From the NCBI GenBank assembly GCA_016196755.1, contig JACPXC010000048.1:1-64000 (forward strand): a stretch of DNA of 64,000 nucleotides, given 5' to 3'. Positions 1-38,584 of the stretch are shown here, piece by piece (the first letter of the stretch is position 1; the number at the start of each line of letters is the position of its first letter). Made by a program: the position numbers and the translations under genes. This DNA comes from Elusimicrobiota bacterium (GTDB lineage Bacteria; Elusimicrobiota; Elusimicrobia; UBA1565). A model generated the notes under the pieces. The model was not told where the DNA came from, did no database searches, and was given only the letters and a program-made list of their open reading frames with translations.

Positions 1-151
1 CCCTCCCGTAGGAGGCTCTTGACGCCCCACTCGGCACCGGAGGTTTCCCTCCGCTGCTGGGGCCTGCTACCGGGCGCTCCGACGCCTGCCCGGACGGGAC
101 TCGCACCCGCTGGTAATGCACGGCCTTACGGCGTACCACCTCGTCATTCTA
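1..151 (-). other. Unidentified structured region, possible leftward RNA
   Basis: No convincing protein gene is seen here. Read leftward, a -10-like TAGAAT (151-146) is followed by several strong stems: a five-base TGGTA/TACCA pairing, a CGGG/CCCG stem with a seven-base loop resembling a tRNA T-arm, a CCGGGC/GCCCGG hairpin, and GGAGG/CCTCC closed by a GAAA tetraloop. The density of nested stems suggests the 5' part of a structured RNA that runs off the left edge. I could not fit it to a tRNA, tmRNA, RNase P RNA, SRP RNA or a riboswitch class I know. The call rests on hand-read pairing only. Confidence 0.25.
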
Positions 152-4891: not shown

Positions 4892-6583
4892 GTGGCCGCC
4901 GCGACCCGCCGCCCTCCGCCGCTCTTCAGACCCAAGCTCGCCAGCGTGGTGGCCGACGGCTACAGCTGGGAGACGTTCTGGGCGGACGCCGCCTCCGGCG
5001 TCATCGTCGGCCTGGTCGCGCTCCCGCTGGCCATCGCCTTCGCCATCGCCTCCGGGGTCCCGCCGGAGAGCGGCCTGGTCACCGCCGTGGTGGCCGGTTT
5101 CCTCATCTCCGCCCTTGGAGGGAGCAAGGTCCAGATCGGCGGCCCCACCGGGGCCTTCATCGTCGTGGTCTACTCCATCGTCCAGCGCCATGGCGTCGAC
5201 GGGCTGGCCGCGGCGACTCTGCTGGCCGGGTTCATGCTGGTCGGCATGGGCTTGGCGCGGCTGGGTTCGGCGATCAAGTACATCCCCTATCCCGTGACGG
5301 TAGGCTTCACCTCCGGGATCGCCCTGATCATCGCCGCCTCGCAGGGCCGGGACTTCCTCGGGCTCACGATGCAATCCGTGCCGGCCGACTTCATCCACAA
5401 GCTCGGAGCGTACGCCTCGCACGCCGGCACGGTCAACCCGTGGGCTCTGGGGCTCGGCCTGGCTTGCCTGCTGCTGCTGGCGCTCTGGCCGCGGCTGACG
5501 CGGCGGGTCCCGGCGCCCTTCGTGGTCATCGTGGCGGCCACCGCCGCCGTGGCCCTGCTCGACATCCCCGTCGACACCATCGGCAGCCGCTTTCCGCCGA
5601 TCCCGGCCGGCCTGCCGGTTCCCCGCCTCCCTAACATCTCGCTGGCCACCCTGCGCGAGGTCTTCCAGCCCGCCGTCACCATAGCGCTCCTGGCCGCCAT
5701 CGAGTCGCTGCTCTCGGCGGTCGTGGCCGACGGCATGACCGGAGGGCGCCATCGTTCCGACACCGAGCTCATCGCCCAAGGCGTGGCCAACATCGCCGTG
5801 CCCCTCTTCGGCGGCATCCCCGCCACCGGCGCCATCGCCCGCACCGCCACCAACGTCAAGAGCGGCGGCAAGACTCCGGTAGCCGGGCTCATCCACGCCG
5901 CGACCCTCCTGCTCATCATGCTGTTCTTCGGAAGTCGGGCGTCGCTCATCCCCATGCCCGCCTTGGCGGCCATCCTCCTGTTCGTGGCCTACAACATGAG
6001 CGAGTGGCGCCTGTTCGTCCGCCTTCTGCGCGCCCCCAAGAGCGACGTGGCGGTGCTCGTCGCCACCTTTCTCCTCACGGTCCTCATCGATCTCACGGTG
6101 GCCATCGAGACCGGCATGGTCATGGCGGCGTTCCTCTTCATGCGCCGCATGGCCGCCGCCACCAAGACCGCCTTCGTCACCGGAGCGGCGCCCGAAGACG
6201 AAGACCCCGACGACCCCATGGCCGTCTCCCGCAAGAGCATCCCGAAGGGCGTCGAAGTCTTCGAGATCGACGGCCCGTTCTTCTTCGGGGCCGCCGACCA
6301 GTTCAAGGACGCCCTGCGCGCCGTCGCCGCCGCGCCCAAGGTCCTCATCCTGCGCATGCGCCGGGTCCCGGTCATCGACGCCACCGGGATCGCCGCCCTC
6401 GACGACGTGTTCCGGAAATCCCAGCGCGACGGCACGCGCCTCATCCTCTCCGGGCTGCATGCCCGGCCGCGCGCGGTCATGCGCCAGATGGGCTTGCTCG
6501 AACGGATCGGCGAGGAGAACCTCGTCTCCGACCTCGACAAGGCGCTGGACCGGGCGCGCGCCGTGCTGGGCGGGCAGGGCTGA
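4892..6583 (+). CDS. SulP-family anion transporter with STAS domain
   Basis: A 563-residue inner-membrane transporter. Residues about 25-420 hold repeated hydrophobic helices typical of SulP, beginning near the TGIVVGLVALPLAIAF-like region. Residues about 447-560 form a cytoplasmic STAS domain containing VIDATGIAALD, the usual regulatory-loop motif. SulP proteins carry sulfate, bicarbonate or dicarboxylates, often with Na+ or H+; the substrate cannot be read from sequence. The GTG start follows the protease stop by 1 nt, so the genes are probably one transcript. No partner carbonic anhydrase or sulfate-assimilation gene is adjacent. Confidence 0.85.
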   Translation: MAAATRRPPPLFRPKLASVVADGYSWETFWADAASGVIVGLVALPLAIAFAIASGVPPESGLVTAVVAGFLISALGGSKVQIGGPTGAFIVVVYSIVQRHGVDGLAAATLLAGFMLVGMGLARLGSAIKYIPYPVTVGFTSGIALIIAASQGRDFLGLTMQSVPADFIHKLGAYASHAGTVNPWALGLGLACLLLLALWPRLTRRVPAPFVVIVAATAAVALLDIPVDTIGSRFPPIPAGLPVPRLPNISLATLREVFQPAVTIALLAAIESLLSAVVADGMTGGRHRSDTELIAQGVANIAVPLFGGIPATGAIARTATNVKSGGKTPVAGLIHAATLLLIMLFFGSRASLIPMPALAAILLFVAYNMSEWRLFVRLLRAPKSDVAVLVATFLLTVLIDLTVAIETGMVMAAFLFMRRMAAATKTAFVTGAAPEDEDPDDPMAVSRKSIPKGVEVFEIDGPFFFGAADQFKDALRAVAAAPKVLILRMRRVPVIDATGIAALDDVFRKSQRDGTRLILSGLHARPRAVMRQMGLLERIGEENLVSDLDKALDRARAVLGGQG

Positions 6584-6743
6584 CCGGACGCATCGCCGCG
6601 CGCGACCGATGCCGCCGTCCCGCCTGAGCGATGCCGCGCGCCTAAAAAAAGCGCTGACGGTGCCAGGCTTTAGACAACCCCTCCGCTCAAGTTTCTTACC
6701 TTAATCCCCTTGAAAATCGGGCCGTTAGGCCCATAATTAGGAG
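6584..6743. other. Intergenic spacer with hairpin and -10 element
   Basis: The spacer holds an A-run, a GGTGCCAGGC motif (6659-6668) shared with the palindrome at 31306, and a GGGCC-GTTA-GGCCC hairpin (6719-6732) next to a CATAAT -10-like hexamer (6732-6737) that ends 6 nt before the GTG of the next gene. The AGGAG sequence touches the GTG directly, too close to act as a normal ribosome-binding site, so a leaderless start explains it better. Confidence 0.45.
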
Positions 6744-8798
6744 GTGAAGGGCCCCCTAGCGCTTCTCCTTGCCCTGTCAATAGGTGCCCCCGCCCGCGCC
6801 GGCAACACCGCGCCGGTGCGTACCAACACCCGCGTCGGCTCCGTCGGAGGGAACGCCGTCGCTTCGCCGTTGGTCAGCCCCGCTCCGGTCGTCCTCGCCC
6901 AACCCGGTCTCCTCATGCCCGGTCCGAGCCTCGTCACCGCGGTGCCGTCGGCCCTCCCTACGCCGGTCCTGGCGCAAGGCCTGCGACAGAGCCTGCCGCA
7001 GGCGATGCCCTTCATCCAGGAGCTGGCCCAAGGCGCGGACCCGGGCCGCGCCCAAGCCGCCGCGGCCACGTTGTCGGCCACGGCCGACCCCGCGCTCTTG
7101 GCCGCGCTGGCCGAGCCCGACCCGGCGGCGGCCCTGAGCCGCCTGGCCGGCCGGCTCAAGGGCGACGCCGGCTCGCGCGACGTGGTCGAGGCCCTCGAGA
7201 AAGCGGCCAGCTACGGCTCCCCGCTCCTGCGCCGCGTGGCCGGGCACCTCGGCGAGCAGCGCCAAGCCCTCTCGCGCTCGTTGGCCGACGGCAGCGTCGA
7301 GCAGTTCCTCGGCGAGAAGATGGACCAGAGCCGGTCCCGGACCGGCGGCGTCGCCGGCAAGCCGCTGGCCGTCGCCTCCCTGCAGGGCGGCCGCTGGGTG
7401 CCGGTCTCTCCGGCATCGGGGGGGCTCAAGGCGGCGCCGGCTCCGGCCGCTCCGCGCAAGGCCGGGGTCTTCCACGAGAACGACATCGCCAAGGTCGTCG
7501 TCATGCACGAGCCCGGGCAGGAGACCAGCTTCTCCAACGCGCATCCAGCCTCCGCGCTCTTCACCGGTCCCGTCGATTGGCAGAGAGCCGCCGGCCAACA
7601 TGCGGCCTACCGGAAGGCCTTGGAGGCCGCCGGGCTCCAGGTGCGCCTCGTCAAAGACATCCTGCTCGAAGGCACGATCGACGCGGAGGGGGAGCCCGTG
7701 AAGGGCCCGGCGCTCGACGCCCTCCGGGAGTTCGCCGGGCGCTCCCTGCGCTACGACACCTCCAAACTGGCCGCGGAGCACCGCCGCGCGAAGCGCGCCG
7801 TCGAGAAGCTTCCCGAAGGGCCGTACAAGAAGGACGCGTTGGCCAAGCTGGCCGCGCTCGAGGCCGAGATCACGCCCGGGGCGCAGGAAGCCTACCGGCA
7901 GGAGGCGCTCGCGAAGCTCTCGCCCCAGACCCTGGTCGAGACCATCCTCAACCGGCCCACGATCGAGCTGCACCTCCAGACGAAGACGCGGAACGAGACC
8001 TACTACGCGGGCCTCTTCCAGAGGGTCCGCCTCGAGCCCATCAGCAACCTTTACTTCTCCCGCGACCAGCAGATCACCACCCAGAAGGGAATCGTCATCT
8101 CGAACCTCAGCTTCGTCCAGCGCCGGCCCGAGGCCAAGGTCATGCGCTTCGTCTTCGAGAAGCTCGGCTTGCCGATCGTCACCGAGCTGACCAAGGGCAC
8201 GATGGACGGGGGGGACTACGTCCCGGCCGGGGACCTGGTCTTCCTGGGCCAGGGCCTGCGCACCAGCGCCGGCGCGGTCAAGCAGCTCCTCGAGGAGGAC
8301 GCCTTCGGCGCCACGGAGGTGGCCGTCGTCAAAGACGCCGTCGACCAGAGCATGGACCGGATGCACCTCGACACGGTGTTCAACCTCGTCGGCGAGAAGA
8401 AGGCCGTGGCCCTCCAAGACCTCTTCACCGATCCCGCCCGGCGGCGCACCGTCGACCTCTACCGGCGGGCGCCGACCCGCGGCCTCAAGAACGCCGTCGG
8501 CCATTACGTGAAGGTCGCCGAGAACAAGGAATTCGGCGAATTCCTCAAAGACCGCGGCTTCGAAGTCGCCGCCGTCACCCATGAGGAACAGCTCCAGTAC
8601 GCCACCAACTTCCTCAACGTCGGCGACGGCCATATCATCACCCCTTTCGGCGGCGGGCGCTACCTCAAGATGCTGCGCGACATGGGCCTTACGGTCAGAT
8701 ACGTGCCCATGAATAGCCTGACGGACGGCTACGGCGCGGCCCACTGCATGACCCAGGTGGTGCTGCGCGAGCCGAGGACGCCCGATGGCACGAATTGA
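6744..8798 (+). CDS. Secreted-leader arginine-deiminase-fold enzyme
   Basis: A 684-residue protein in two parts. Residues 1-20 are a signal peptide (cleavage before Asn21 predicted). Residues about 20-200 are an Ala/Pro-rich then helical leader shared with the next two genes, ending in KMDQS (192-196) and followed by a GGLKAA linker. Residues about 248-680 are an arginine-deiminase-type guanidino-modifying fold: NLYFSRD (about 434), DGGD (about 490), HLDT (about 541) and the C-terminal nucleophile Cys668 in HCMTQ. Known ADI turns arginine into citrulline and ammonia. Known ADIs are cytoplasmic and lack such a leader, so its location is the odd point. The substrate is inferred; another guanidino compound is possible. 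It overlaps the next gene by 14 nt. Confidence 0.75.
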   Translation: MKGPLALLLALSIGAPARAGNTAPVRTNTRVGSVGGNAVASPLVSPAPVVLAQPGLLMPGPSLVTAVPSALPTPVLAQGLRQSLPQAMPFIQELAQGADPGRAQAAAATLSATADPALLAALAEPDPAAALSRLAGRLKGDAGSRDVVEALEKAASYGSPLLRRVAGHLGEQRQALSRSLADGSVEQFLGEKMDQSRSRTGGVAGKPLAVASLQGGRWVPVSPASGGLKAAPAPAAPRKAGVFHENDIAKVVVMHEPGQETSFSNAHPASALFTGPVDWQRAAGQHAAYRKALEAAGLQVRLVKDILLEGTIDAEGEPVKGPALDALREFAGRSLRYDTSKLAAEHRRAKRAVEKLPEGPYKKDALAKLAALEAEITPGAQEAYRQEALAKLSPQTLVETILNRPTIELHLQTKTRNETYYAGLFQRVRLEPISNLYFSRDQQITTQKGIVISNLSFVQRRPEAKVMRFVFEKLGLPIVTELTKGTMDGGDYVPAGDLVFLGQGLRTSAGAVKQLLEEDAFGATEVAVVKDAVDQSMDRMHLDTVFNLVGEKKAVALQDLFTDPARRRTVDLYRRAPTRGLKNAVGHYVKVAENKEFGEFLKDRGFEVAAVTHEEQLQYATNFLNVGDGHIITPFGGGRYLKMLRDMGLTVRYVPMNSLTDGYGAAHCMTQVVLREPRTPDGTN

Positions 8799-10980
8799 CG
8801 CGGCGCTGACCTTGCTCCTGGCCGCGGCCCTTCCGACCGCGGCGGGAAACCTCACCGGCGTCAAACCGGTGGGCAGCCGTACCGGGACCGGCCAGACCAC
8901 CGTCGCGGCGCCGTTGGGCGGGCAGCCCTCGGTCAGCCTCGTCCAGCCCAGCCTTGGCGGGCAGGCCTCCGCCCTGCCCGCCCCGGCGTCGCCCGCCGCG
9001 GCGGCGGGCTATCGCCAAGCCTTGGCCCGCGTCTCCGAGGCCCTGGGGGAGCCCCAGGCCGAGGCCCCGGCCGCGGCCGCCGCCAAGGCCGAGCCCGCCG
9101 CCGTGGAGGCCGCCGAGCGGGCCGTCTCGAAGGCCCTGGCCCAGCAGGACCCCGCCGCCGCGCTGAGCCGCCTGGCCGAGAGCCTCAAGGGGGAGCCGTC
9201 GGCCCAGGACGTCGTCGGCGAGCTCGCGCGCCTGAGCGCCTTGGGCTCACCGGCCCTGCGTACCGTGTCGGGGAAGCTGGCCGCCCTGCGCGGCGAGCTG
9301 GGCCGAGCCGCGGCCCAAGGGACGGCGGCGGAGCTGTTGGCCGCCAAAATGGACCAATCCCAGACCGGCCGGGGCGACCTCGCAAGCCCAGCGGTGGCGT
9401 TGCCCGAGGCGGCGCTTGCGCAGAAGCCCGGCTCGAGGCTGGCCCCCGCCGCGGAGGACGCACCCGCCCCGGACGCGCTCTTTAAGGAAGTCCCCGCGCG
9501 GAACGCCTCCCGGCTCGAGGGCGACGACGCCCCCGCCGAGAGCCTCCGGGCGCGCGTGACGAAGTTCGCCCTCGCCTACGGCGGGGTCTTCGGGATCTCG
9601 ATGGCCACCCTCCACTCGGTCAACGCCTTCGGACAGGGTCTGGTGGCGGGAGGGGAGAGCCCCGCGGCGCGGGCCGGTTCGCACGCCCTGATCGAGGCTT
9701 TCTCCGCGTACCACATCCCGCTCCTGCTCCTCCAGCTGGGCGTCATCATCGGCGCCGGCAAGCTCTTCGGCTGGCTGCTCGGCAAGGTCGGCCAGCCCAG
9801 CGTCGTCGGCCAGGTCATCGGCGGCCTGGCGCTGGGGCCCTCCCTGCTGGGCCTGCTCTTCCCGGGCGCGGCCGCCGCGCTGTTCCCCGAGGCGACGATG
9901 CCGATCCTGCACGGCCTGAGCACGGTGGGCCTGGCCTCGTTCATGTTCATCGTCGGCCAGGAGCTCGACCTGAGCTCGCTCAAGAAGCACGCCAACGCCG
10001 CCGGCCTCATCTCCCACGCCAGCATCTTCATCCCCTTCGCGATGGGCGCCGCCCTGGCCCTGGCGCTGTTTTCGGGCTTCGCCCCGGCGGGGGTGGCCTT
10101 CCTGCCCTTCGCCCTGTTCATCGGCATCTCGATGAGCATCACGGCCTTCCCGGTGCTGGCCCACATCCTCCACGAGCGCGGCATGACCAACACGCCGCTG
10201 GGCTCGCTGGCCCTGGCCTGCGCCGCCATCGACGACATCTCGGGCTGGACCCTGCTGGCCGTCGTCCTCGCGGTCGCCGGCGGCGGCACCTTGATGGCGG
10301 CCGGGGGCATCCTGGGCTCGACCCTGCTATTTGCCGGCGTGATGTTCGGGGTCGTCCGGCCGCTCTTGGCCCGCTTCGCCGAGACCTTCGCGGACCGGCC
10401 CTGGTACAAGTGGGCCTGGCTGCCGATGCTGGCCGCCATGCTCGCCGCCTCCGCGTTGACGACCGAGCTCATCGGCGTGCATTCGCTCTTCGGCGCCTTC
10501 GTGGCGGGCATGGTCGTCCCGCGCGGAGAGGCCGGTCTCAGCGAGGACCTGGCCAAGAAGATCCAGGCAATGAGCGCGGCCTACCTCCTCCCGGTGTTCT
10601 TCGCGCTGACCGGCCTTCGAACCCAGCTCGACATCCTGTCCAGCCCCGCGCTCTGGGGCGCGGCCGCGCTGGTCATCGCCACGGCGGTGGCCGGCAAGTT
10701 CGGCGGCGGCGCCTTCGCGGCCCGCTACTCGGGGCTCAGCTGGCGCGATTCGTTCTCGATCGGCGCGCTGATGAACACCCGGGGCCTCATGGAGCTCGTC
10801 GTCCTCAACATCGGCTACGAGCGCGGCATCATCAACGGCCCGCTCTTCGCGATCTTCGTCCTGATGGCCGTCGGCACGACCATGATGACCGGGCCCTTCC
10901 TGAGCTGGTTCGGCTCGAAGGAACCGGCGGAAGCGGAACTCGTCAAGGAAGCCAGGCAGCAGCTCGCCAACCCCGCATGA
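8785..10980 (+). CDS. CPA2-type cation/proton antiporter with shared leader domain
   Basis: A 731-residue membrane protein. The N-terminus repeats the leader of the preceding gene: a hydrophobic signal ending in AGN, the block DPAAALSRLA, LKG, DVV, a GSPALR segment, then KMDQS (188-192). Residues about 255-715 are a 12-13 helix CPA2 exchanger of the KefB/RosB/NhaS3 type, including the paired acidic motif AIDDISGW and the NTRGLMELVV motif late in the domain. No TrkA-N regulatory domain follows. Typical members exchange Na+ or K+ for H+. The leader of roughly 240 residues before the first transport helix is not usual for this family; if the signal is cleaved the leader would be periplasmic. Confidence 0.8.
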   Translation: MARIDAALTLLLAAALPTAAGNLTGVKPVGSRTGTGQTTVAAPLGGQPSVSLVQPSLGGQASALPAPASPAAAAGYRQALARVSEALGEPQAEAPAAAAAKAEPAAVEAAERAVSKALAQQDPAAALSRLAESLKGEPSAQDVVGELARLSALGSPALRTVSGKLAALRGELGRAAAQGTAAELLAAKMDQSQTGRGDLASPAVALPEAALAQKPGSRLAPAAEDAPAPDALFKEVPARNASRLEGDDAPAESLRARVTKFALAYGGVFGISMATLHSVNAFGQGLVAGGESPAARAGSHALIEAFSAYHIPLLLLQLGVIIGAGKLFGWLLGKVGQPSVVGQVIGGLALGPSLLGLLFPGAAAALFPEATMPILHGLSTVGLASFMFIVGQELDLSSLKKHANAAGLISHASIFIPFAMGAALALALFSGFAPAGVAFLPFALFIGISMSITAFPVLAHILHERGMTNTPLGSLALACAAIDDISGWTLLAVVLAVAGGGTLMAAGGILGSTLLFAGVMFGVVRPLLARFAETFADRPWYKWAWLPMLAAMLAASALTTELIGVHSLFGAFVAGMVVPRGEAGLSEDLAKKIQAMSAAYLLPVFFALTGLRTQLDILSSPALWGAAALVIATAVAGKFGGGAFAARYSGLSWRDSFSIGALMNTRGLMELVVLNIGYERGIINGPLFAIFVLMAVGTTMMTGPFLSWFGSKEPAEAELVKEARQQLANPA

Positions 10981-11002
10981 ACCCCGACCCGAGGTGTGTC
11001 CG

Positions 11003-13753
11003 ATGAACAAGCTCATAGCGCTCCTGCTCTCCGCCGCGCTGGCCGTCCCCGCCGGCGCCGGGAACGTCGCGTCGGTTCCCGCCCCCAACGCTCCCATCGG
11101 AGGCTCCGGAGGAGCGGCCTCCGGCGCCGCGGCGGCCTCCTTGGCCCCCGTGTCCGCCGCGGGACTGGCGCCCAGCCCCTGGGTGGCGCGCGCCCTGTGG
11201 GGCCATGATTACCATGTCCCGACCCCGTCTTTGGCCCAAGGCATGAGGCAGAGCCTGCCGGTGCTGACGGAAGCCATGGCGGCGGCGGCCCGGAACCCGG
11301 ATACCGCCGCCGGCGCGAGGCAGGTGGCGGCCGCGCTGAGCCAGAGTCTCGACCAGAACCTCAAGAACGGCAATCAAGAAGCCGCCGCCGCCGACGCCGC
11401 CCTGATATCGGCCATCAGCGGCCGTAGGCCGAAAGAGCGGCTGAAGACTCTCGCCAAAGATCTCGAAGCTCAGGAGGACGCACGCGAGCTCCAAGCCGCC
11501 CTGGGTCAGCTCGAGATCTATACGGCGCTGGAGTTTATCCGCGTCGGAAGCCAGCTAAGCGCCTACCGCCTGGCCCTCACCCAGGCGATCAAGGGAGGCA
11601 CCGTCGAGCAGTTCCTGGCCCAGCGTATGGACCAAAGCGGCTCCCCGCAGGCGGGCCAAGCCCCGGCCGCCGCCCCGGCCGTCTCGGCCGCGCGCGGCAA
11701 GACCGCCCCGACCCCGCCTTCCCGCGGCGGCCTCAAGGCCGCCCAGGCTCAAGCCGTGGCCGCCCAGGCGACGACGGCGCGCGACTCGGCCGCCTCGCAG
11801 ACCGCGGTGCCCGCGCCGGGCGCCCGTGGGTATCTCTCGGTCTTCGACCTGGCCCCCGCCCTCGGCGCGCCGACCAACGGCGTGGCCGGCACCGTCGCGC
11901 GCCCGCTCAGCGGCGACGACGCCTGGGCCAGCGCGGCCACCGACAGGCCGGTCAAGCCGAACCCGGTCATGAACGGCCCGCTCGTGAGAGGCGAGCTCCA
12001 GGCCGACTTCGTCAACGTCGGGATGGGGCCGACCGGCATGATGGCGATGATCGCCGCGGTGGCCAGCGGAAAGACCGCGGTCGGCGTCGAGATCCGCGCC
12101 GAGCCCCAGCGCGGCGTGCACCAGAACATCCGCGAGGAGTGGTTCCACGTGCTGGGCCTCATCGACAAGATGATGCTCGACCGCTACGGCGAGGACGGCG
12201 TGCCCAAGCTTCCGAGCGGCAAGCCCTTCATGCTGGCCGACGTCTTCTACAACCCGGAGCGCGTCGGCGGGCACCTCGACTTCAACGAGATCTACGGCGT
12301 CGGCGACTCCCAAGGCCAGAACGTGGCCGGCCGCCTGAGCCGCATCTCCTTCGAGGACGCCCGCGAGGCCACGGTCTCCGGCAACGACGGCAAGGCCAAG
12401 GTCTTCGTCCTGCCGGCCCCGACCCTCCCCGACAAGCCCGACCCGGCCAAGATCACCGGCAACATGCAGAAGGTGCTCGACAGCCCCTCGTCGTTCCAGG
12501 TGGCGCTCATCAACTACGAGCTGATGCTGCGCGCCTACATCAACGCCATCCAGGCGCAGGACAAGGCCTCCGGACGTCCCGCCCGCATCAAGACCTACGA
12601 GAACCACCGCGTGGCCGTCGAGGAGGGCCAAGCCCTGGGCTACGTCGAGGTGCCCGGCGACCGGCGCCGGATCGTCATCGAGGAGGTGGTCGACAAGCGC
12701 GGCGCCGGCGGGGCGGCCCAGCGCGTCCACAAGGAGGGGACGCCGAGGATCGACCTCGGCGCCCCGAAGCGCTTCGCGCTGTCGATGGGCTTCGGCGGCG
12801 GGCTCGACGCGAAGACCTTGGGCTACAAGCAGGAGGACGTGAAGTACGCCGATCCGGCCACGGGCCAGGAGATCGCCGGCAAGCAGAACTGGATCGTCGG
12901 CGAGGTCACGGCGAACATCGGCGGCCAGCTCATCCGCCGCATCAGCACGATCGCCGACCCCAGGACCGGAGAGAAGCACACCGTGCGCCAGATCGCCGTG
13001 GGCCATGAGAACGCGCCGAACGTGGCCTGGGTGCCGGTACAGGTCCCGGCGTTCATGGACTTCGACCCCGTGGCGGCCGGCAAGGTCCCGGCCGGCAGCG
13101 ACCCCAAGTCCGCCGCCCACATCGACGCCCGCAAAGCCCTGATCCTCGACTACTTCGTCGGCCAGGTCTCGGCGGTCACCCACATCCCCGAGGCCGACAT
13201 CCGCCGCATGCGCATGTTCTACGGGCCCAACTTCTTCACCCTCCAGGAGAAGATCGGCCACACCGCGCGCGTAGCGGCCAACGGCAACGTAGCCGGGGAC
13301 CTCATGGGCAACGGGCACTTCCTGACCAGCGGCGGGTCGATGACCGGGATGATCGGCCACACCATCTGCTTCCTGCGCTACTGGGACAACCTCTCCCGCG
13401 GCGTGCCGGCGGACGTGGCGGCGCGCGTCCTCGAGGACGGGATCAAGACCAACAGCGAAGCTTGGCTGCACGTCAGCCAGAAGGAGTTCGACAGCCTGGG
13501 CCCGGCCAACTTCGGCGCCGAGCGCGCGGCGGCGCTCGGCGTCAGCAACGAGGGCGGCGGCCAGAACGCCACCGGCCGCGGCTTCGGCCTGGCCCAGGTG
13601 CTCGGCCAGCAGAGCTGGGCGGACTCGTTTAGGCGGCTGTTCGCCGGCGAGTTCGGCAAGGCCGGCGAGGACTTCTACGTCCCCGAGAAGGAGGTCGACG
13701 TCACCGCCGCTCAGGGCGTCACGGTCCAGCGCGTCACCTTGGCCGGCAATTAG
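11003..13753 (+). CDS. Secreted-leader FAD-type oxidoreductase, substrate unknown
   Basis: A 916-residue protein. ATG 11003 was chosen over GTG 10994 because GAGGTG lies 6 nt upstream and it begins the signal peptide, which again ends in AGN. The leader carries PTPSLAQGMRQSLP (also nearly present two genes upstream) and RMDQS (208-212), then a GGLKAA linker. From about residue 333 a dinucleotide-binding fold starts (GMGPTG, then an acidic residue ending strand two, as in FAD-binding proteins), followed by about 570 residues that I cannot assign. Candidate relatives are flavin monooxygenases or amine-oxidising enzymes; no substrate is proposed. A strong hairpin terminator follows. Confidence 0.6.
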   Translation: MNKLIALLLSAALAVPAGAGNVASVPAPNAPIGGSGGAASGAAAASLAPVSAAGLAPSPWVARALWGHDYHVPTPSLAQGMRQSLPVLTEAMAAAARNPDTAAGARQVAAALSQSLDQNLKNGNQEAAAADAALISAISGRRPKERLKTLAKDLEAQEDARELQAALGQLEIYTALEFIRVGSQLSAYRLALTQAIKGGTVEQFLAQRMDQSGSPQAGQAPAAAPAVSAARGKTAPTPPSRGGLKAAQAQAVAAQATTARDSAASQTAVPAPGARGYLSVFDLAPALGAPTNGVAGTVARPLSGDDAWASAATDRPVKPNPVMNGPLVRGELQADFVNVGMGPTGMMAMIAAVASGKTAVGVEIRAEPQRGVHQNIREEWFHVLGLIDKMMLDRYGEDGVPKLPSGKPFMLADVFYNPERVGGHLDFNEIYGVGDSQGQNVAGRLSRISFEDAREATVSGNDGKAKVFVLPAPTLPDKPDPAKITGNMQKVLDSPSSFQVALINYELMLRAYINAIQAQDKASGRPARIKTYENHRVAVEEGQALGYVEVPGDRRRIVIEEVVDKRGAGGAAQRVHKEGTPRIDLGAPKRFALSMGFGGGLDAKTLGYKQEDVKYADPATGQEIAGKQNWIVGEVTANIGGQLIRRISTIADPRTGEKHTVRQIAVGHENAPNVAWVPVQVPAFMDFDPVAAGKVPAGSDPKSAAHIDARKALILDYFVGQVSAVTHIPEADIRRMRMFYGPNFFTLQEKIGHTARVAANGNVAGDLMGNGHFLTSGGSMTGMIGHTICFLRYWDNLSRGVPADVAARVLEDGIKTNSEAWLHVSQKEFDSLGPANFGAERAAALGVSNEGGGQNATGRGFGLAQVLGQQSWADSFRRLFAGEFGKAGEDFYVPEKEVDVTAAQGVTVQRVTLAGN

Positions 13754-27325: not shown

Positions 27326-30300
27326 TTATTTCTTATCCGCGACGGCTCCGCCCGCGCGCACCGAGGCGATGTAGAGTTCGGCCTTGCGCAGGACCTCGGA
27401 GTACGGCTCGCCGGTCAGGATCTCGACGCCCTGGCTGACGTGCGACACCGCCCAGATGTGGAACTTGCCGGCCTTGACCGCGGCCACGATGTCGGCGCGC
27501 AGCGTCAGGTCGGGGATGTTGGCCACCGGGATCATGATGCCCTGCTCGCCGTCCATCTCCCGGCCCTTGAGGCGCAGCATCTCGGCGACCACGTCGAAAT
27601 AGCCCTCGATCTTGTAGTTGACGCCGCCGATGACCTGCACGTTGCCCTTCTGGTCCATCGAGCCCGTCATCGCGATGCCCTGCTTGATCTTGACGCCGGA
27701 GAGAGCCGAGAGCACGCCGTAGGTCATGGTCTGGGTGGCCGAGTCGCCGTCGATGCCGCCGTACTGCTGCTCGAAGGCGATCGAGACTTCGACCGGCACG
27801 GTCCTCTTCTTGCCGAACAGGTTGTTGAGGAAGCCCTTGATGTCGGCGATCGACTTGTCAAACGAGCTCCCCGTGCTGTTGGCGGCCTGGTCGGCCGAGA
27901 CGATCAGCGCGCTGCCGGGCCGGGCGTAGGCCGAGTAGGTGATGCGCGAGGGCACGCCGAAGTCGCCCATGACGGCCAGGCCGTTGTTCTGGCCGACCTC
28001 GGAACCCGCGATCTGCACGCGGAAGATCCCGTTGGCGTAGAGCTCCTTCATGCGCCGGCGGCCGGAGCCCTGGCGCTCGACGCGCTCGGAGACCGCCTTG
28101 TCGACGTCCTCGCGCGCCACCAGCTCGCGCCCGGCCTGACGGGCCCAGAACGAGGCCTCGTGCATCAGGGTCTGGACCAGCCCGAACTGCGCGGTGAGCT
28201 TCTCGTTGGACTCGGCCATCGCGGCCGCGCTCTCGAGGACGCCGGCGATCGCCTCGCGTCCGAAGTCGAGCAGGTTCGTCGTGCCGCTGGTGACCACCTC
28301 GCGCATGAAGCTCAGGTAGCCCTTCACGGTGTCGGCCGCGATCTTAAACGAGTTGTCGAACTCCGCCGCGGCGTGGAACAGGCGGGCGAAGTCCTCGTCG
28401 TTGTGGGCCAGGAGCATCTTGAGGTAGGGCGCGCCGATGAAGACCACCTTCACCTTGGTCTCGATCGGGTAGGTGGCGCCCTGTTTGGCGGTCATGAGGC
28501 CCACCAGGCCGTCCTCGACGATCTCCGCCTTGCCGTTGCGGATCATCCGCATCAGCGACTGGTAGACGCCCGGCTCGCGCAGGGTGTCGAGCAGGTTGAG
28601 GACGAGGAAGCCGCCGTTGGCCTTGAGGAACGAGCCGGCCTTCAGGGTCGGTCCGCCGGGGCCCTCGCGCTTGACCATGCCGCCGTTGGGCATCATCATG
28701 ATCTTCTTGTTGTCCTCGGCGTAGCCGAAGAGGTTATTGAAGGTCGGGGTGGGCTCGAAGACCACGGGCGCGCCCTTGGTCTTGGCGTTGTCGACCAGGA
28801 GGCCGACGTTGTAGCGCTCGGCCGGGTCGCCCTCGGCCTCGGTGGAGAAGGCGCGCCAGCCCATGACCAGGTCCTGGGCGAAGGACTGCACCCACTCGAT
28901 CGCCCGCTGGCGGTCGGCCGTCATGGGCAGGTCGTTCTCGTGGAGCTTCTGGTGCTCGGCCTCGATCCCGGCCTGGACCTTCTCGAGCTCAGCGGAGAGC
29001 GGCTGGACGGCGGCCATCGCCGCCCCCACGAGCGCCTCCCAGGTCAGGGCCGCGTCGACCTTGCCGGCCTCCTTGAGGGACGCGAAGCGCTTGGGGCTGA
29101 CCGGCTTGCCCTCGTAGGTGATGGCCAGGCCCTCGCCGATGGCGATGCCGAAGATCCCGCCGACCTTGACCTTCGCGACCTTGGTCTCCCAGGCCTTGAA
29201 CTTCTTCTCGGCGGAGGCGCGCCAGGCGGTATGGCCCTCGTCCTCCTCCCGGTTGGCGGCGCCGGAGACCAGGCCCGCCAGATCGGCGGCGAGCTCGCTG
29301 ACGACGGCGCCGGCCACCTTCTGCTCCAGCATCATGAGCTGCATCTGGGCCTGCTCGGCCTCGGCGCCCGAGGACTGCATCATCTCGCCGAACTTCTGGA
29401 GGAGAGGCTTGGCCTTGGCCTGGGCGTCGGCCATGGCTTGCTGGAAGGTGACGCCGGTTCCCTCGAGGGCCTTCTGGGCCTCCTCGGGGGAGATCGCCTT
29501 GCCGTCTTTGGTGATCGCGGCCCGGACGTTGATCTTGCCTTCGCCGGCCTGCTCGGCCGATATCTCGATGCCGAAGCCGCCGACGACCTTGACCTGGGCG
29601 ACCTCGCGCTGGAAAGCCTTCTGGCGGTCGGCCGCGCCGGCCTCGAGCTGGGCTTGGACCTGCTTGCGCAGCTGGCCGACCTCGCCCTGGTTCAGGGCCT
29701 TGTTCATGGCCCCGGGGAAGTTCTCGACGACCTTGTCGACGGCGGCGAGGAACTTCGCGCCCTCGCCGGGCTCCATCTTGAGGACGTGGGGGTTGTCGCG
29801 GTCGGCGAAGTTGACGGCGGCCACCAGGTCGCCGGGCGTGGCGCGCTTGGGCGCGAGCTCGGAGAGCATCTCGCGCACCGCGGTCTCGCGGCCGGTTCCC
29901 TCGGCTCCGGAGACGATGACGTTGTAGCCGGGGTCCTCGATCTTGAGGCCGAACTCGAGCGATTCCAGCGCGCGGTCCTGGCCGACCATGCGGCGCGCGC
30001 CGCGGGTGGCCTCGGAGGCCTTGGCCGGCAGGGCCTTGGCGTCGGGAGTCCAGCGCAGCTTCTCCGCCGGGACCTTGAGCTTGTCGGTGTCGATCGTCGC
30101 CGCCTTGGGACGGGCGTCCTCGGCCTTCTTCAAGGCGTAGCGGCGCACGGAGCCCAGCGGGCTCCAGCCGGCCACGGTCGTCCAGAAGCCCGACGCCTTC
30201 GCGGCGGTCTCTACCGGCATGAGCTCGGCGCGGCGGGAGTTGTCGTAGATGGCGGCCATCGACTCGCCGCCGCCGCCGAATTTCTGGGCGGCCAGCGACT

Positions 30301-30775
30301 TGCCGAAGGCGGTGATGCTCTCGCGGGCGGCGCCGGCCGGCAGCGCGGCGGCCACGGCCTCGAACTGGGCCGGGGTCTTGGCGGCGTCGAGCTGGGTGAG
30401 CAGGGACTGCCCGCCGGCCTTCTGGACCGCGGAGATCATCGAGAGGGCGGGGTGGCGCTCCACGGCCTGGGCCCCGGCGGCGGCCGCGAAGGCCGACGGG
30501 GCCGCGGCGGCGGGGGTCATGACGGCGGCGGGCGCCGCCTGGGGGCGGGCGGAGAGGACCGGGGTCGGCAGGGCCGCGCTGGGGCCGGTCAGCACCGGCA
30601 GCGTCATCGTGAAACCGTTGACGGAGGGCCCGTGAGTGGTGTAGCCGGCCGCACCCACGCCGGAGGGGACGGCGGCGACAGGGGCGGCGGCGCGGGTCAC
30701 GACCTGGGCTCGGGCGGCCGGGGCGCTGCCCCAGACCAGACCGAACGAGAGCATGACGGCCAGGAATTTTCTCAT
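27326..30775 (-). CDS. Lon-type AAA protease with a signal peptide
   Basis: An 1149-residue protein. Residues 1-23 are a signal peptide (MRKFLAVMLSFGLVWG then APAARAQ), followed by an Ala/Pro-rich leader containing PTPVLSA, similar to the leader of the arginine-deiminase-like protein. A LonB/AAA_32-type module follows: P-loop variant GAEGTGRET (about 292), as usual for that family, and a large helical insertion. The C-terminal Lon protease domain has the catalytic dyad Ser near 1011 (GDSATQTM) and Lys near 1054 (GGVNYKIEG). Family members are cytoplasmic and ATP-linked; a signal peptide is therefore odd. ATG 30775 was chosen for the clean leader, with GAGG about 10 nt upstream; an ATG 14 codons earlier is possible. 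Confidence 0.8.
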   Translation of the reverse strand: MRKFLAVMLSFGLVWGSAPAARAQVVTRAAAPVAAVPSGVGAAGYTTHGPSVNGFTMTLPVLTGPSAALPTPVLSARPQAAPAAVMTPAAAAPSAFAAAAGAQAVERHPALSMISAVQKAGGQSLLTQLDAAKTPAQFEAVAAALPAGAARESITAFGKSLAAQKFGGGGESMAAIYDNSRRAELMPVETAAKASGFWTTVAGWSPLGSVRRYALKKAEDARPKAATIDTDKLKVPAEKLRWTPDAKALPAKASEATRGARRMVGQDRALESLEFGLKIEDPGYNVIVSGAEGTGRETAVREMLSELAPKRATPGDLVAAVNFADRDNPHVLKMEPGEGAKFLAAVDKVVENFPGAMNKALNQGEVGQLRKQVQAQLEAGAADRQKAFQREVAQVKVVGGFGIEISAEQAGEGKINVRAAITKDGKAISPEEAQKALEGTGVTFQQAMADAQAKAKPLLQKFGEMMQSSGAEAEQAQMQLMMLEQKVAGAVVSELAADLAGLVSGAANREEDEGHTAWRASAEKKFKAWETKVAKVKVGGIFGIAIGEGLAITYEGKPVSPKRFASLKEAGKVDAALTWEALVGAAMAAVQPLSAELEKVQAGIEAEHQKLHENDLPMTADRQRAIEWVQSFAQDLVMGWRAFSTEAEGDPAERYNVGLLVDNAKTKGAPVVFEPTPTFNNLFGYAEDNKKIMMMPNGGMVKREGPGGPTLKAGSFLKANGGFLVLNLLDTLREPGVYQSLMRMIRNGKAEIVEDGLVGLMTAKQGATYPIETKVKVVFIGAPYLKMLLAHNDEDFARLFHAAAEFDNSFKIAADTVKGYLSFMREVVTSGTTNLLDFGREAIAGVLESAAAMAESNEKLTAQFGLVQTLMHEASFWARQAGRELVAREDVDKAVSERVERQGSGRRRMKELYANGIFRVQIAGSEVGQNNGLAVMGDFGVPSRITYSAYARPGSALIVSADQAANSTGSSFDKSIADIKGFLNNLFGKKRTVPVEVSIAFEQQYGGIDGDSATQTMTYGVLSALSGVKIKQGIAMTGSMDQKGNVQVIGGVNYKIEGYFDVVAEMLRLKGREMDGEQGIMIPVANIPDLTLRADIVAAVKAGKFHIWAVSHVSQGVEILTGEPYSEVLRKAELYIASVRAGGAVADKK

Positions 30776-30932
30776 CGCTGTGTTGCCTCGGTTCTCGCGG
30801 CGGTTTTCGTCCCTCATCCCATCAATGTTAAGGGTACAGCGATTCTCAGTCATGGGTCGACGGGCTCCATACGGCATGCATTAGGGCCTATGCGCGCCTA
30901 GGCCTTATCGCCGGGCCGCGGGCGGTGTTTGG

Positions 30933-36181: not shown

Positions 36182-38583
<2,402 letters not shown>

Positions 38584-38584
<1 letters not shown>

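Follow-up and report, generated by a model that had tools for sequence, protein, structure and literature searches.

Closest described systems

Domains that recur on unrelated enzymes and fix their location are known from the C-terminal domains of type IX secretion and from dockerins, shared tags carried by diverse cargo. The locus described here is comparable in that a single domain recurs on unrelated enzymes. It differs in that this domain is N-terminal, following a signal peptide, is predicted to be all-helical and matches no named family; no candidate partner, such as a sorting machine or a cohesin, was identified.

The modules attached to this leader have described relatives of their own. 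Arginine deiminase ArcA (PF02274) has the fold and the catalytic Cys, His and Asp of the first protein, but the latter lies far under the ArcA equivalog cut-off, has the carboxylate-binding Arg replaced and carries the added leader. Class A FAD hydroxylases (PHBH, squalene epoxidase) and the halogenases CmlS and CtcP share the predicted fold and a GxGxxG motif with the third protein, but no family-level sequence similarity. Gene clusters of Kitasatospora, Nonomuraea, Actinokineospora and Ktedonobacter (L011, L020, L018, L028, L031) resemble the locus in having a flavoprotein of about 40% identity near a CPA2 antiporter, to which L011 adds an enzyme of the ADI superfamily; unlike the locus, they have no leader, and they include a TauD-family oxygenase and a PLP decarboxylase, both absent from the window. 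The window is the whole stretch of 64,000 nucleotides analysed here, from an Elusimicrobiota bacterium of UBA1565. A freshwater Elusimicrobiota chromosome of the order UBA1565 / Lineage IV has been published (PMC9476967), and a search of a limited collection of papers found none describing such leaders in Elusimicrobiota.

Operon structure and genomic surroundings

The locus comprises the following features:
6744..8798, + strand: gene 1, 684 aa, leader and arginine-deiminase-fold module (ORF; PF02274)
8785..10980, + strand: gene 2, 731 aa, leader and CPA2 antiporter (ORF; PF00999)
11003..13753, + strand: gene 3, 916 aa from ATG 11003, leader and flavoprotein module (ORF and start)
6710..6737, + strand: promoter-like site TTGAAA-16-CATAAT directly 5' of gene 1 (consensus match only; consensus scan, 1 seen against 0.2 expected in shuffles)

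All three genes lie on the same strand, with an overlap of 14 nt between genes 1 and 2 and a gap of about 22 nt between genes 2 and 3, and are therefore regarded as an operon. GTG 10994 was considered as the start of gene 3; ATG 11003, with GAGG upstream, is most likely the start instead. In window 6704-6746, the promoter-like site stops 6 nt short of GTG 6744, and AGGAGGTG overlaps the start codon. If transcription starts near 6744, the mRNA would be leaderless, which may be how gene 1 is translated.

The trio sits between genes for SulP and GlgX, as a possible insertion; the SulP copies of relatives are found in other surroundings. As in the window, genes for a SulP transporter and a CPA2 antiporter lie within 5 kb of each other in one relative (G011, L188), with 59% identity to the window SulP at 4892 and 50% for the antiporter. 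A match to group II intron domains D1-D4 (window 1-112, - strand) is cut off at the first base of the window.

A homologous leader on three proteins

The leader regions were delimited as follows:
6744..6800, + strand: gene 1 signal peptide, read from sequence, predicted cut ARA|GN
6960..7343, + strand: gene 1 helical leader domain, residues 73-200, with the KMDQS end (AlphaFold2 model)
8785..9384, + strand: gene 2 leader, with signal peptide (TAA|GN), Ala/Pro-rich stretch, helical part and KMDQS at 188-192 (homology to leader 1, E 4e-18)
11003..11668, + strand: gene 3 leader, with signal peptide (AGA|GN), Ala-rich stretch, helical part and RMDQS (homology to leaders 1, E 2e-13, and 2, E 3e-6)

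An earlier note on this DNA had proposed, from the letters alone, that three unrelated enzymes share one secreted leader. The three ORFs and all the motifs quoted there are present: the signal-peptide ends, MDQS (residues 193-196 of gene 1, 189-192 of gene 2 and 212-215 of gene 3, or 209-212 counted from its ATG), PTP(V/S)LAQG(L/M)RQSLP with GGLKAA common to genes 1 and 3, and DPAAALSRLA..LKG..DVV..GSP.LR common to genes 1 and 2. The homology itself was upheld by composition-corrected blastp (E 4e-18 for leaders 1 and 2, 2e-13 for 1 and 3, 3e-6 for 2 and 3), and the pairs scored Z 8-25 over residue shuffles, whether the signal peptide was removed or not.

Each protein has the same layout: a Sec-type signal peptide, an Ala/Pro-rich stretch and about 120 helical residues with (K/R)MDQS at their end, then a flexible linker that leads to the C-terminal module. 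The signal peptides, called by a home-made rule and with cuts (ARA|GN, TAA|GN and AGA|GN) read from the sequence, end in AxA|GN and contain no lipobox (Cys at +1), twin-arginine or prepilin G|F motif. In an AlphaFold2 model of leader 1, built from a three-row alignment, residues 1-69 are disordered and seven helices extend across 73-200; model confidence is low (mean pLDDT 56, with helix blocks at about 53-83 and residues 1-69 and 197-237 below 50). No solved fold matches the modelled helical part, and the leader sequence matches no named family. Only one leader could be modelled, so a single fold for all three is what their homology suggests.

This layout, with the leader between signal peptide and module and flexible linkers after KMDQS, might be that of a pro-domain or intramolecular chaperone, which would aid Sec passage and folding and then be cut near KMDQS or in the linker, with no co-assembly. 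Many proteases occur among the leader-bearing proteins described below, as such a role would allow. Fold-specific pro-domains, however, would hardly be expected to be the same on three folds that include a membrane protein of many helices, and no conserved cleavage site was found; we consider a pro-domain unlikely.

The specific helical leader was searched for in 341 genomes of the phylum and no copy was found outside these three genes, nor were leaders found in viral contigs. A BamA-like protein (L007), examined as a possible fourth carrier, matches by its signal peptide alone, and matches in G126 and G128 are porin-like proteins in which the similarity is likewise restricted to the signal peptide. 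The confinement to three adjacent genes, together with the low-complexity composition of the leader, would suit a 5' segment that was simply duplicated among neighbours, with no joint function beyond export and with the helical part as tolerated filler. Against this, the helical C-terminal half is the better-conserved part of the leader (49% over 81 aa, leader 1 against 2), which suggests selection after divergence, and mere duplication seems improbable.

The arginine-deiminase-fold module

The module identities given in the earlier note were confirmed, that of gene 3 by predicted fold, with no sequence-family match.

7467..8795, + strand: gene 1 ADI-fold module (alignment with ADI 1rxx)

PF02274 matches residues 368-675 of gene 1 (E 1.5e-45; 156.3 bits against a gathering threshold of 22.8). 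When aligned to 1rxx, the catalytic residues D441, H541, D543 and C668 are kept (FSRD 438-441, MHLD 540-543, HCMT 667-670), and a Glu is changed to Asp at about residue 488. The score lies far below the ArcA equivalog cut-off (87.2 bits against 489.1), and GRGRGGGHC of 1rxx aligns with TDGYGAAHC, Tyr taking the place of the Arg next to GGGHC, the carboxylate-binding residue of ADI. The substrate of gene 1 is therefore probably not free arginine, but another guanidino compound. The module was found in no other genome of the phylum (341 genomes).

The CPA2 antiporter module

Gene 2 matches PF00999 over residues 328-709 (E 2.8e-55, 188 bits) and has a DD motif at residues 483-484 (AAIDDISGW at 480), and is a predicted cation/proton antiporter of CPA2 type; it misses the cut-off of the subfamily TIGR00932 (138.6 bits against 238.3). 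The nearest antiporter in the order, that of G011, is 50% identical and located about 2.5 kb from the SulP gene; it has no leader, beginning at the first membrane helix with a stop codon just before. The long antiporters of G001 and G002 were inspected as possible leader-bearing forms and rejected, as they have no N-terminal leader and their added length is C-terminal. Hydropathy and what is known of NapA-type antiporters suggest an N-outside start of the gene 2 module, which would fit a periplasmic leader.

The flavoprotein module

11981..13753, + strand: gene 3 flavoprotein module with the GMGPTG dinucleotide motif and a hydroxylase-like FAD fold (homologues, model, Foldseek)

No sequence match to this module was found in Pfam, NCBIfam or PDB. 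Its model (pLDDT 78.9) retrieved FAD-dependent hydroxylases and halogenases in Foldseek (best E 4e-13, prob 1.0, with moderate TM-scores of 0.32-0.61), and GMGPTG is contained in NVGMGPTGMMA at residues 341-351 of the gene 3 ORF. An FAD-dependent hydroxylase-like fold is thus predicted. A contig search with the gene 3 module alone as query gave no match; an alignment query including one Streptomyces homologue recovered 21 actinomycete and Ktedonobacterales loci, most at about 40% identity. In several actinomycetes (L012, L018, L021, L022, L026, L028, L030) two copies stand side by side. Among 295 sampled genomes of the phylum no other has the flavoprotein.

The same modules without leaders

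None of the ORFs homologous to the flavoprotein at the 21 loci has a comparable leader, nor has the nearest antiporter in the order, which supports the interpretation of the earlier note. Five of the 21 loci (L011, L018, L020, L028 and L031) also encode a CPA2 antiporter, at most a few kb from the flavoprotein and, in L020 and L031, directly adjoining it. In L011, from Kitasatospora paracochleata, an enzyme of the DDAH/ADI superfamily, a distant relative of the ADI module of the window, is located between flavoprotein and antiporter, with the TauD-family oxygenase and the PLP decarboxylase upstream. This cluster (L011:6651-13924; TauD oxygenase, PLP decarboxylase, flavoprotein without Pfam model, DDAH-like enzyme, CPA2) is possibly a guanidino natural-product pathway.

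Since the modules cluster together elsewhere without leaders, the trio appears to be a functional set of old standing to which the leader was added here. In the simplest history, modules that were old or had been acquired were fitted with the leader within this lineage; alternatively, they may have come by transfer from an unsampled relative that already used leaders.

A wider class of leader-bearing proteins

The earlier note had also expected the same leader with varied C-termini in related genomes. As an architecture this is found, in this genome and, with further cases, in relatives; the specific helical leader is not, being confined to the three genes among the 341 genomes. In a survey of 1.15 Mb, about 25% of the genome, with home-made ORF and signal-peptide rules, 21 of 892 ORFs, the trio included, combine a signal peptide, an Ala/Pro-rich leader and a varied module starting from about residue 200. 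Selection used the signal peptide and the composition of residues 22-120, cysteine content playing no part, and four further filter matches were excluded by eye. The other 18 proteins are enriched in LP[TSG] (14 against 4.5 in shuffles), in [ILVM]P[TS][PL]x[LI] (4 against 0.19), which PTP(V/S)LAQG of the trio fits too, and in an FDG-type motif at residues 100-240 (7 against 0.45). KMDQS was considered as a form of the FDGSxR motif that ends the leader in part of the class; matrix scores at MDQS (-5.4 to 2.7) are not above background.

The modules of the class in this genome include LonB, M41/FtsH with Walker and HExxH motifs intact, Clp-type AAA+, LOG, HtrA, S41 and MFS. The same architecture occurs in relatives of the family and order, some with the FDG motif, where it is attached to dynein-type AAA, an MFS/TLC transporter and adenylate kinase. 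One member is encoded in the window:

27326..30877, - strand: LonB-type AAA+ protease, 1149 aa, no cysteine, with signal peptide, Ala/Pro-rich leader and a SALPTPVL-like stretch as in leader 1

Leader-bearing Lon and FtsH forms are extra copies beside canonical ones; the canonical Lon, which has no leader, is at window 36182-38584 (- strand). In G002, G005 and G010 (L201, L199, L200) a second, short adenylate kinase behind a signal peptide and a Pro/Ala-rich leader accompanies the canonical enzyme. The FtsH/M41-like protein of L078:3139-6015 (G000 C14) has two more hydrophobic segments after its signal peptide and leader; with the added signal peptide, its AAA and protease domains would lie outside the cytoplasm, the reverse of canonical FtsH. 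A membrane transporter that carries a leader (L126:17566-19392, G044) matches both MFS and the TLC family of ATP/ADP translocases (E 4e-9).

Cysteine depletion and export

After residue 200, the median number of cysteines in the leader-class proteins of this genome is zero and their mean content 0.034%; proteins lacking a signal peptide have 0.92% (p=2e-12), and other signal-peptide-like proteins 0.66%. The depletion is repeated in relatives, where 12 proteins chosen by architecture have a median of 0 (p=2e-7). Canonical Lon and FtsH contain 6 and 4 cysteines, whereas the leader-bearing LonB and the FtsH-like module have none, and the kinase domains of the leader-bearing adenylate kinases are likewise cysteine-free. 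Each protein of the trio has 1 Cys after residue 200, and in gene 1 this is the catalytic one. Flavoprotein homologues without leader are cysteine-poor too (0-5 per protein), so gene 3 adds little to the argument. Near-cysteine-free modules are as expected for exported proteins, and export of the leader class appears well supported, if indirectly. The earlier suggestion that the leader is a targeting or anchoring tag gains support from this depletion in its targeting part, retention at the envelope being our inference.

It might be supposed instead that the signal peptides do not work and that these proteins, extended at the N-terminus, never leave the cytoplasm, where the ADI fold, the hydroxylase-type flavoprotein, AAA+ proteases and adenylate kinase would meet the cytoplasmic substrates or cofactors that they normally need. 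The near absence of cysteine from the class, here and in relatives, and the likeness of the signal peptide to that of relatives' porin-like proteins speak against this, which makes it very unlikely.

Possible role of the leader

The operon may encode a small functional set of a guanidino-group hydrolase with the ADI fold, a cation/proton antiporter and an FAD-dependent oxidoreductase, to each of which this lineage would have added a leader at the N-terminus, homologous among the three. The Sec signal peptide would take the protein out of the cytoplasm, as its sequence and the cysteine depletion suggest, the disordered Ala/Pro-rich stretch and the flexible linker might serve as spacers, and the helical part ending in KMDQS might act as a docking or retention domain. 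By docking, the two soluble enzymes might be kept beside the antiporter, at the outer face of the inner membrane. That the trio is retained at the envelope and docks there is suggested by the shared domain, the single operon and the one integral membrane member. The trio would then belong to a lineage-wide class of exported proteins with leaders and almost no cysteine. The mismatch between the KMDQS end and the FDG motif seen in other leaders counts against such a role, and docking is a guess, since the helical leader has no fold relatives.

The chemistry is the weak point. FAD hydroxylases with the fold of gene 3 usually need NAD(P)H, which the periplasm lacks, and in the textbook view the periplasm is also without ATP. 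A flavoprotein of this fold and the ATP-dependent enzymes of the class would thus have no known periplasmic supply of NAD(P)H or ATP. Either other donors are used, or the compartment is not a standard periplasm, or the signal peptides lead elsewhere than they seem. On account of this missing supply, we hold the chances to be evenly balanced that the leader serves to export the three proteins and to retain them at the envelope by docking through its helical part. For the same reason, it is a tentative and rather doubtful proposal that the order runs a second, exported enzyme set (LonB, FtsH-like, Clp-like, adenylate kinase) by means of long leaders in a nucleotide-containing compartment outside the cytoplasm, the trio having been recruited there by copying one leader onto three acquired genes.

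If export and docking by the leader hold true, a bacterium would be gathering activities at its envelope in a new manner, through one N-terminal leader shared by unrelated enzymes. The wider class would be more surprising, as almost cysteine-free AAA+ proteases and adenylate kinases behind secretion leaders would imply ATP-using chemistry outside the cytoplasm. The leader may also help to trace which proteins are exported in a little-studied phylum.
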